From Haloarcula sp. (GTDB lineage Archaea; Halobacteriota; Halobacteria; Halobacteriales; Haloarculaceae): DNA of 6,231 nt. The position numbers and the translations under genes are program-made. The stretch covers positions 1-6,231 of the forward strand of contig JAQCNK010000131.1 in assembly GCA_028275075.1 (NCBI GenBank). Direction: 5' to 3'. Below the pieces are notes generated by a model. That model searched no databases and was not told where the DNA came from. It saw only the letters and a program-made list of their open reading frames with translations. Positions 296-6,231 of the stretch are shown piece after piece (the first letter of the stretch is position 1; each line of letters begins with the position of its first letter).

Positions 296-378
296 TATAC
301 GGGTCGACAGAACGATTGAGAGAAGTCGGTTCGCCAGACCCCGGCGAATATCTATCAGGGCTTCTGTCGACCCGTATA
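296..378. repeat. 83-bp palindromic element, copy 1 (MITE-like)
   Basis: The arms 296-312 (tatacgggtcgacagaa) and 362-378 (ttctgtcgacccgtata) are perfect 17-bp inverted repeats 49 bp apart. Inside, ttcgcc (330-335) and ggcgaa (343-348) form a second stem with a 7-nt loop, so the whole unit can fold into a long imperfect hairpin. The ends read TATAC-GG and CC-GTATA, which would fit insertion at a TA dinucleotide, but no longer target duplication is seen. A second unit of nearly the same size and pattern lies at 3171-3250. It could be a non-autonomous transposon remnant; a terminator for the upstream integrase or a recombinase binding site are alternatives. The inverted repeat is directly visible; the mobile nature is inferred. 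Confidence 0.7.
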
Positions 379-612: not shown

Positions 613-956
613 ATGGACGACCACACCTACGCCAACAGACCCACACAGACGGGCCGCGGGCTCGCGCCGTCGGTGGCGCTCAATCCATCGGCGTTCTATA
701 GCCTGTATCTTGGTAGTCTTGCGCTTCCAGAGAAAATCACCGTACCCAAGCCTCGGTAGTCACGCTACTGAGTGGCCGTCTTGGCCTGCGGCCGGGCGAA
801 ATCCAGCACCTCCACGAGGGGTGGATCGACTGGAATCGCGGCGAACTCCGTATTCCTGACCGCGATCCGTGTGCCTGCGAACTCTGTTGGCAGACAGCGC
901 GGAACGCCCAGCGCGCTGGTGACGGCCGCCGGCTCAACAAAATCATCACCGAAACC
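613..956 (+). pseudogene. N-terminal part of the recombinase-CheF gene, separated by a frame break
   Basis: An ATG at 613 opens a 48-codon frame (MDDHTYANRPTQ...) that stops at TAG 757-759. The recombinase homology then continues in the -1 frame, which is open from 717 but has no ATG, GTG or TTG before 957. In that frame, bases 756-956 encode VVTLLSGRLGLRPGEIQHL, the first conserved region of the tyrosine recombinase domain with its arginine (codon 789-791), followed by GWIDWNRGELRIP and a Cys-x-Cys-x-x-Cys cluster (870-887). This is clearly protein-coding and cannot be left out of the gene. The simplest reading is one original gene from 613 to 2597 with a one-base loss around 745-757, for example CCCC to CCC at 745-747. 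A sequencing error or true decay both fit; no convincing -1 slippery heptamer is present. Confidence 0.6.
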
Positions 957-2597
957 ATGTGGACCTCGCCCGGCGGCGGTCGCACCATACCGTTCGCGTG
1001 GTCAAACCGCCTCACCGCCGCGCTGGCGACCGTCTGCGAGGAGGAATACCTCGATGTTACTGTCGAATCCATCGCCCAGTTGATCACCGCAAGCGCGGAG
1101 CTTGCACAGGGACTTGACCCCACAGCCATCAACTTCCGCACACTGCGTGCGACCGGCGCGTCGTTTTTCGCTGACACCGGGTTCCCGGCTCATCGCGTAG
1201 CAGGGCTCCTTGGCGAACCGTCAACTGTGGCCCGTGAGTTTACCCGCCGCGAAGGTGGGGACGCTCGCGAGCAACTATTCCGGCTGTTCGGTGCGAATTC
1301 AGAGGAGGCCGCTCCCGAGGAGACCTACGCGCTTTTGACCGATCCCGAACCGTTCGAACAGGAGCCGTTCAACCCGTCCACCTACGACGCAGACTGGCGG
1401 CATGACCGCGCCGAACGGGTCGCTCAGGACGATGAGCCGCTTCGTAATCCCCGGCCGGTAACAAATCAGACGGAGACAACACTCGACCCGGGCAACCTTG
1501 GCACGCGTCGACATCTTGACACCGATAGTGATCTTGTTAGGGAGGATAACGCAGCCACGACGCTCCGACAATGGGTTCACGATCAAGAAGAGACACGACG
1601 CAATGACACCGGATCGGCGACCCAAACGTCGCCCACACAGGCCGATGCTACTGGGCCGTCTGTTTCGTCGGGGACAGTCATTACCGATCCGCAAGAGCAT
1701 ATCGACGGTGAGCCGCTGTTTACCGCAGAGACGGAGGTCGCCTGTGTCGACATTGCAGACGGTCAACCCGTTGCCTGTCGCGTTTTCGTTGGTCCTGAAT
1801 CACTGTTGCTAATCCACGATGACAACGAGATGGCTCCCCCCGACGCTAAACAGATCGAGCTCGCGTCAGTCGTTGGCCAATCGATAGACTACGTGCCCTC
1901 ACAGCTTGCGGACACCTTTGACTCAACAGTCGGCATCGCTTACGATGAGGGTGAGGGCCAAAACATCGCGGTACTCGCACTAAGTGGCAACAAACGCGTT
2001 AGGATCACTAATATAGTATTTAAGCAAGTGCTGTCGGAGTGCCCAGTCTTTGTCACTCATCCTGCAAAGCGCGGTGGGCGGGTGACAGATAACGAACCGG
2101 TGGCCGGGCAGCTAACTGCCGATAATCGCTCGTTTTCGATCAAAACCTCAGATGATCACACACCGGATTTCAGGATCAGACTTAGGGATATCATGGATAT
2201 TGGTACTGAACGGCAGACTATCGATGGTGACGAGCGGTGGAGCCTCTCCATCAAACACCTCACAGACGACGGTGCCGCGAATTCGAAGATTACTGCCCGC
2301 GACGATAGACAGTACAAACTACTCCGCCAGTTTGCCAAACGTGAATATAAAAAGCGTAAACACCAACTCAAAAAGCTATCACTCAGCGATGATGAGAAGG
2401 AGGTGCTTGTCGCGCTGTACTCGGCCAGTAACCAGATGGATATCTCGATGATTATTGATAAAGACGCTGACGAGTTCCAGGCTATTATCAATTCGTTGAA
2501 TAACTCAGGATTGGTTCGCACGGGCGGAAGCGGGGCGGAACTCACTGGTCTCGGGCGGGTGGCGGTCAATCGCAAGGTCGAGGATGTAAATGTGTAG
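957..2597 (+). CDS. Inactivated tyrosine recombinase domain fused to a CheF-like (archaeal taxis adaptor) domain
   Basis: The first in-frame ATG (957) gives 546 residues, though coding clearly extends upstream. Residues 1-110 are the C-terminal half of a recombinase catalytic domain: GGGRTIPFAWSNRL, then RTLRATGASFFADTGF and VAGLLGEPSTVAREFTRR. The key positions are changed: HxxR is RxxR (Arg61, Arg64), the LGH histidine is Glu87, and the expected tyrosine is Phe95. It probably cannot recombine DNA but may still bind it. Residues 115-250 are a polar, probably disordered linker. Residues 250-546 resemble archaeal CheF (PF04283, formerly DUF439), which links the chemotaxis proteins to the archaellum: CPVFVTHPAKRGG (362-374), RLRDIMDIGTERQTIDGDERW (408-428), a basic helix (461-473), and a C-terminal winged-helix-like part starting LSDDEKEVLVALYS (476-489). 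No che or archaellum genes are nearby, so a role in taxis is doubtful. The recombinase assignment is firm; the CheF call is from remembered family pattern. Confidence 0.75.
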   Translation: MWTSPGGGRTIPFAWSNRLTAALATVCEEEYLDVTVESIAQLITASAELAQGLDPTAINFRTLRATGASFFADTGFPAHRVAGLLGEPSTVAREFTRREGGDAREQLFRLFGANSEEAAPEETYALLTDPEPFEQEPFNPSTYDADWRHDRAERVAQDDEPLRNPRPVTNQTETTLDPGNLGTRRHLDTDSDLVREDNAATTLRQWVHDQEETRRNDTGSATQTSPTQADATGPSVSSGTVITDPQEHIDGEPLFTAETEVACVDIADGQPVACRVFVGPESLLLIHDDNEMAPPDAKQIELASVVGQSIDYVPSQLADTFDSTVGIAYDEGEGQNIAVLALSGNKRVRITNIVFKQVLSECPVFVTHPAKRGGRVTDNEPVAGQLTADNRSFSIKTSDDHTPDFRIRLRDIMDIGTERQTIDGDERWSLSIKHLTDDGAANSKITARDDRQYKLLRQFAKREYKKRKHQLKKLSLSDDEKEVLVALYSASNQMDISMIIDKDADEFQAIINSLNNSGLVRTGGSGAELTGLGRVAVNRKVEDVNV

Positions 2598-3165: not shown

Positions 3166-3176
3166 AACTTATACTG
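3166..3176 (-). promoter_or_regulatory. TATA box for the ribbon-helix-helix-like gene
   Basis: Read on the minus strand, agtataagttc ends about 30 bp before the ATG at 3136. Transcription starting about 27 bp after its centre would begin near 3144, giving a leader of about 8 nt, typical of haloarchaeal genes. The first half of the box (agtat) is the outer end of the palindromic element at 3171-3250. Confidence 0.5.
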
Positions 3177-3250
3177 GTGGCTGTAAGTTCGCAAAGATAT
3201 TCGACACCCCGGGGTGGCGAATTACTTCAGTTTGTTACAGCCACCAGTAT
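3171..3250. repeat. 80-bp palindromic element, copy 2 (MITE-like)
   Basis: Arms 3171-3186 (atactggtggctgtaa) and 3235-3250 (ttacagccaccagtat) are perfect 16-bp inverted repeats. The core caccccggggtg (3205-3216) is a perfect palindrome on exactly the same centre (3210.5). Further matches outside the core (3199-3203 with 3218-3222, and 3194-3196 with 3225-3227) make nearly the whole unit one imperfect hairpin. The arm matches copy 1 at 10 of 16 positions (ATAC-GGT-G----AA), and both cores contain TTCG...CCCC...GGCGAAT. The unit starts at the last base of the cysE stop codon and ends within the TATA box of the next gene, so it may also terminate cysE transcription. Copying by transposition is inferred. 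Confidence 0.7.

Positions 3251-6156: not shown

Positions 6157-6231
<75 letters not shown>

Follow-up and report, generated by a model that had tools for sequence, protein, structure and literature searches.

CheF (PF04283, DUF439; structure 7ovp, and its C-terminal domain (CTD) with CheY, 7od9) is, in the papers covered, the link between phosphorylated CheY (CheY-P) and the archaellum motor. According to PMC9126983 (cited sections), CheY-P is touched in the solved complex by helices of the CTD and by the carboxyl at the chain end, and the N-terminal PH-like domain 1 (PH1) likely faces the motor. The H. volcanii protein without its CTD still localised normally, and a C-terminal GFP abolished its function, for which the authors blame blocked CheY-P binding. 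A 2009 description placed CheF genes almost only in che regions (PMC2666748), and fusions are frequent among chemotaxis proteins in the archaeal survey PMC11237513. About 40% of the response regulators of archaea are receiver domains that stand alone, and DNA-binding output is rare in archaea (PMC5847659, cited section). Tyrosine recombinase domains that lack the catalytic site and are linked to other domains are known from eukaryotes, as DUF3504 proteins, Cbf2/Ndc10, and Gcr1 (PMC3212892, cited section). The window analysed here, the whole 6,231-base contig JAQCNK010000131.1 of a haloarchaeal draft genome (Haloarcula sp., 2.06 Mb, 71.6% complete), carries a gene in which a dead recombinase domain is joined to a CheF.

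This pairing had been proposed in an earlier note made from the sequence alone, and it proved to be conserved across homologues. The family is tentatively read, with a chance slightly short of even, as a receptor that takes CheY-P by its CheF end and is predicted to hold the signal at DNA by its dead recombinase end. No published description of a recombinase–CheF fusion was found among titles and abstract openings. In the text parts covered, the words "CheF" and "recombinase" are absent from the main text of PMC11237513, "CheF" from PMC5847659, "recombinase" and "integrase" from PMC3579733, and "fused", "domesticat" and "degenerate" from PMC8371274. A few family members are already labelled "CheF family chemotaxis protein" in source databases.

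A dead recombinase domain and a CheF in one protein

The protein search gave 48 matches, of which P0003–P0048 are fused (P0011 and P0031 truncated) and P0049 and P0050 are recombinases that lack a CheF part. When only the recombinase part served as query, among proteins of about 360 to 1160 residues, 33 matches were obtained; 32 have a CheF Pfam call and one is just below the cut-off. The features of the gene are listed below by window position, with residues numbered as in P0003.

613..2597, + strand: whole fused gene, 661 aa in the relative P0003; the window copy has a single frame break
613..759, + strand: opening 48 codons, in a frame differing from the rest; matches the P0003 N-terminus up to the break
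756..2597, + strand: main open frame, 613 codons, read directly
670..1256, + strand: tyrosine-recombinase-related domain, residues 20-215 (relatives and fold)
870..887, + strand: CxCxxC cysteines C87, C89, and C92, kept in 98% of fused and 100% of unfused rows
969..971, + strand: Pro120 at the catalytic Lys column (alignment with intact relatives)
1137..1148, + strand: R-T-L-R replacing HxxR, with Arg176 for His and Arg179 kept (alignment)
1215..1217, + strand: Glu202 at the His/Trp column (alignment)
1239..1241, + strand: Phe210 at the nucleophilic Tyr column (alignment)
1317..1481, + strand: conserved adaptor segment, residues 236-290, with E251, P252, P280, and R281 invariant in alignment A2
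1482..1691, + strand: variable polar linker, residues 291-360 (alignment and structure prediction)
1707..2036, + strand: CheF PH-like domain 1, residues 366-475 (Pfam, structure prediction, fold)
2037..2297, + strand: CheF PH-like domain 2 (PH2), residues 476-562 (Pfam, structure prediction, fold)
2298..2594, + strand: CheF helix alpha-4 and CTD corresponding to the CheY-P-binding domain, residues 563-661 (sequence/profile comparison)
2577..2594, + strand: C-terminal end VEDVNV, patterned as in the canonical CheF1 of the same genome (LEDVNV)

The catalytic columns R-K-H-R-H/W-Y of the recombinase domain read R60, P120, R176, R179, E202, and F210. The residues named in the earlier note in a 546-aa reading (Arg61, Glu87, Phe95) are R176, E202, and F210, exactly at catalytic columns; the loss of the catalytic Lys (P120) was missing from its list. 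Among 55 fused rows, near-copies included, the first Arg is present in 41, the Lys in none, the His of HxxR in 3, the Arg of HxxR in 52, the His/Trp in 1, and the Tyr in 4, with Phe at the Tyr column in 39. The corresponding counts for 18 unfused rows (12 of them from 22 species-genome loci, apart from L005–L010 and L020) are 18, 18, 18, 18, 17, and 16. All six residues are present in 16/18 unfused rows, the remaining two having four and five, and no fused row has more than three. An active recombinase was rejected, as the set is incomplete in 55/55 fused rows.

The recombinase kinship claimed in the earlier note rests on the relatives and on the fold, which is that of a tyrosine recombinase catalytic domain, rather than on the PF00589 HMM. 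The latter gave 12.9 bits in the window, far below the cut-off of 27.1, and matched 4/44 family members at E 0.01 (best 6.2e-4); in PHROGs the fused proteins gave only weak integrase matches (best 4.4e-4). The domain is shared with haloarchaeal CxCxxC tyrosine recombinases (P0049, P0050, L072–L074), the longer of which have by eye a DP..R..NPR adaptor-like segment; these differ in keeping the full catalytic set and in having no CheF. The CxCxxC motif is a possible zinc knuckle. Arginines R124 (55/55), R133 (55/55), and R179 (52/55) are kept in the fused rows. The last of these is the second Arg, which the eukaryotic DUF3504 proteins lost (PMC3212892, cited section); the dead eukaryotic recombinases are of unrelated lineage, with unrelated partners. 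The dead domain very likely has a function, because dN/dS is below 0.5 and 16 of the 25 invariant columns of alignment A2 lie in the recombinase part (four are in the adaptor and five in the CheF part). Nei–Gojobori dN/dS in five pairs was 0.12–0.45 for the recombinase part and 0.07–0.41 for the CheF parts where dS was unsaturated; the values are rough, with dS often above 1.

As an observation apart, five unfused proteins with the full catalytic set (P0049, P0050, L072 9169-10614, L073 9300-10745, and L074 9138-10577) have C-terminal hydrophobic, membrane-like segments, found in none of the other 13 unfused rows, and are possibly membrane-anchored tyrosine recombinases.

CheF kinship, proposed from sequence pattern in the earlier note, was borne out by PF04283 (99–101 bits against a cut-off of 25 for the window frame), by the 7ovp profile match, and by fold. 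All 44 members of alignment A2 match PF04283 at E 0.01. The family profile reached 1.4e-7 against 7ovp, a single-sequence search 0.081 only. Both PH-like domains and the C-terminal tail domain of 7ovp are present by fold. The recombinase-derived domain was added N-terminally, leaving the CheF C-terminal end free. The C-terminal pattern [VI]Nx occurs in 35/35 canonical CheF1 rows and 38/54 fused rows; as these 38 keep the CheF end that contacts CheY-P, the wording "rather than a taxis protein" in the earlier note is probably wrong as put. The fused protein differs from CheF in the added domain and linker, in its strongly diverged PH1, and in lying away from che genes.

Mean identity to canonical CheF1 is 27.6% for PH1 of the fused rows, against 55.1% among the canonical rows themselves, 29.3% against 45.3% for PH2, and 37.4% against 46.1% for the CTD. 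These means cover fused rows with the narrower tail pattern, P0031 (truncated) and L067N being left out; canonical rows were picked by likeness to the genome's own CheF1 over at least 230 residues, which keeps out CheF2-type proteins. Excluding the last 11 residues, CTD identity exceeds PH1 identity in 38/38 tailed fused rows and 0/35 canonical rows; with all CTD columns, a partly circular comparison, it does so in 38/38 tailed, 0/16 untailed, and 1/35 canonical rows. From this contrast between PH1 and CTD and from the free C-terminal end, which are the main argument, CheY-P binding was likely kept and motor binding changed.

Between the two parts, the earlier note had placed a polar linker of about 130 residues. 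A linker exists at about 291-360, and the remainder holds the conserved adaptor, which is confidently predicted at residues 241-270 only (pLDDT 87–92, against 56–58 at 271-290). The open frame 756-2597 is present as that note had it; the true start of the gene is upstream, at 613. The database protein P0003, 99% identical to the window copy, reads through both frames (613-759 and 756-2597), and 48 codons lie in the other frame; therefore the window holds a copy of the fused gene whose frame is broken by one base somewhere in about 720-760. The break may be an assembly error or a recent mutation. Programmed frameshifting is not supported, as the breaks in the window and in genome G068 sit at different places.

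Distribution, history, and surroundings of the fused gene

The fusion occurs in at least 8/194 sampled Halobacteria genomes (own included), from six genera and two families; up to six candidates were scored per genome, so that 8/194 is a lower bound, and G068 (frame split) and G002 (very divergent) are among them. Public species genomes with the fusion are those of Halonotius terrestris, Halohasta salina, Halohasta litorea, Halobacteriaceae archaeon SHR40, Halovenus carboxidivorans, and Halovenus LUM.6. In trees computed after removal of near-copies, 36 fused rows lie on one side of a branch for the recombinase part (support 99/95). The CheF part places the fused rows likewise (99/97), but their clade there also takes in a CheF-like gene of Halovenus carboxidivorans that stands alone. 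This gene (L068 11221-12183, 320 aa) lies near the fused gene and has a long branch. The simplest history suggested by the sequences is a single fusion, with catalysis lost at or before the clade root. A 117-aa frame in L020 (8076-8429), with a recombinase-domain piece joined to a stretch like the CheF C-terminus, may be what is left of a fused gene after collapse.

Identity to the Halonotius gene is 70%, and best matches in 12 same-genus genomes of the sample are at about 1e-65 to 1e-67, against 1e-273 for the own copy. Horizontal acquisition of the fused gene fits better than a contaminating Halonotius-like contig. Contamination is unlikely, as two inverted-repeat families of the own genome flank the gene, and hardly any copies of them occur in the relatives checked; it is also opposed by the downstream fatty-acid gene, 76–77% identical to three same-genus genomes.

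The first of these inverted-repeat elements (window 296-378) is dispersed; its 16-nt arm occurs 232 times in the own genome (at most one mismatch; control 0), and at the listed places two arms often face each other in inverted orientation with a spacing of about 65 bases, with one copy in total in six relatives checked. The second (3171-3250) has the same build and a different 16-nt arm, with 80 arms in the own genome and 0–1 in each of five others. At the contig start (3-218) there is a C-terminal piece of another tyrosine integrase (phrog_1, 8.8e-6), and at the other end a tRNA-Glu (ttc; 6157-6231), whose 3' end is the contig end; as a guess, the assembly may have broken here at an integration site. 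In a further CheF of this genome (L001 1264-2895), the open frame extends upstream into a stretch that is transposase-like by eye, which we take to be of IS200/IS605 type.

Neighbours at the loci examined look chromosomal by eye. The Halohasta-type loci L006, L007, and L067 have common flanking genes, and so do the Halovenus-type loci L008–L010, with proteasome-like and peptidyl-tRNA-hydrolase-like genes (all named by eye). With dN/dS below 0.5 in both halves, these neighbourhoods make a structural part of a mobile element, as the earlier note had suggested, unlikely. No PADLOC anti-phage defence family was found at E 0.1 for P0003, P0049, and P0035. Unlike the che-region CheF genes, the fused gene lies outside che regions: the nearest CheW-family match is at least 170 kb off or on another contig in 12/12 genomes, a weak result for short-contig drafts such as that of the 6.2-kb window contig. 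Archaellins, CheW-family genes, and at least two other CheF matches are present in all 12 genomes checked.

Possible roles of the fused protein

By analogy to the solved CheY–CheF structure, the fused protein likely still binds CheY-P by its CheF end. CheY-P from the ordinary che system would likely bind the CheF tail of a fused-protein dimer; CheF dimerises through its CTD, and two recombinase-derived domains would thus be brought together per dimer. These domains are predicted to rest on DNA, or on some other partner, and to respond, and CheY-P would thereby alter events at a chromosomal site instead of motor rotation. DNA binding without cutting is suggested by the fold and the kept arginines; it is possible, and the weakest part of the proposal. 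Ndc10 binds DNA through such a recombinase-derived domain. Archaeal stand-alone REC (CheY-like) regulators, which lack an output domain (PMC5847659, cited section), are candidate inputs. That the fusion is their detached DNA output, a DNA-bound pseudo-recombinase taking CheY-P through the CheF tail and tying taxis to a chromosomal locus, is possible and rather doubtful.

Several observations weigh against these proposals. The C-terminal end is missing in 16/54 fused rows, and therefore CheY-P binding by that end is not a general rule; in these rows, where the tree shows the end lost two times, CheY-P binding may be gone. The CTD is closer than PH1 in 10/16 untailed rows as well when the last 11 residues are excluded, and the tree has no more than two changes of the tail, leaving a sign test without power; the association of tail and CTD likeness thus carries no statistical weight. 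Helix alpha-4 is as diverged as PH1 (25.1% against 54.5%), and H. volcanii CheF turned diffuse upon alpha8 deletion (PMC9126983, cited sections). Frame-broken copies exist in the window and in G068. No signal of association with che systems was seen; a che system in 12/12 genomes is uninformative because 169/194 Halobacteria genomes have CheW. Several positions that are basic in the unfused relatives are non-basic in the fused rows, where arginines are frequent at new places, and the net charge per residue of the domain is -0.040, against -0.013 in unfused rows; the lost basic positions and greater acidity count against simple DNA binding. Finally, only about 20 residues precede the recombinase domain, and the protein thus lacks a separate core-binding domain that could clamp DNA.

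The partial loss of basic residues would suit a variant motor adaptor that docks on the archaellum switch (ArlCDE) and uses the recombinase-derived domain for protein interaction or oligomerisation, with no DNA contact. All CheF domains are present by fold, and the 12 genomes have archaellins, CheW-family genes, and separate CheFs; but the likely motor-facing PH1 has only half the similarity to canonical CheF that canonical proteins have to one another, and the gene is distant from CheW-family genes in 12/12 genomes, so that this role is judged unlikely. Less probable still is a sink or phosphatase that merely titrates or dephosphorylates CheY-P and so tunes taxis, the N-terminal domain just positioning the protein. 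The end kept in 38/54 fused rows agrees with it, as does the suggested action of the terminal carboxyl in dephosphorylation (PMC9126983, cited sections), but the 16 invariant columns in the recombinase part would be left unexplained. The two frame breaks, the integrase fragment, the repeat elements flanking the gene, and the possible remnant in L020 could also point to a relic, decaying or selfish, that was left when an integrase inserted into cheF and that travels with mobile elements. This is very improbable, given the selection on both halves, the single clade, the flanking genes shared within the Halohasta-type and within the Halovenus-type loci, and the occurrence in at least eight genomes of six genera.

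As a putative CheY-P receptor with a DNA-directed end, the family offers a specific candidate for another output of chemotaxis in archaea, being a clade with the CheY-P-binding part as the better kept part of CheF, a drifted PH1, and an added dead recombinase. It bears on the question of the outputs of stand-alone archaeal receivers (PMC5847659, cited section). In prokaryotes, it parallels what happened in eukaryotes, where tyrosine recombinases were domesticated as modules without catalysis. The fusion is carried by named isolates and is hence testable. If the reading as a DNA output is true, taxis signalling would be tied to a chromosomal locus in archaea, where many response regulators are stand-alone receivers without DNA-binding parts.
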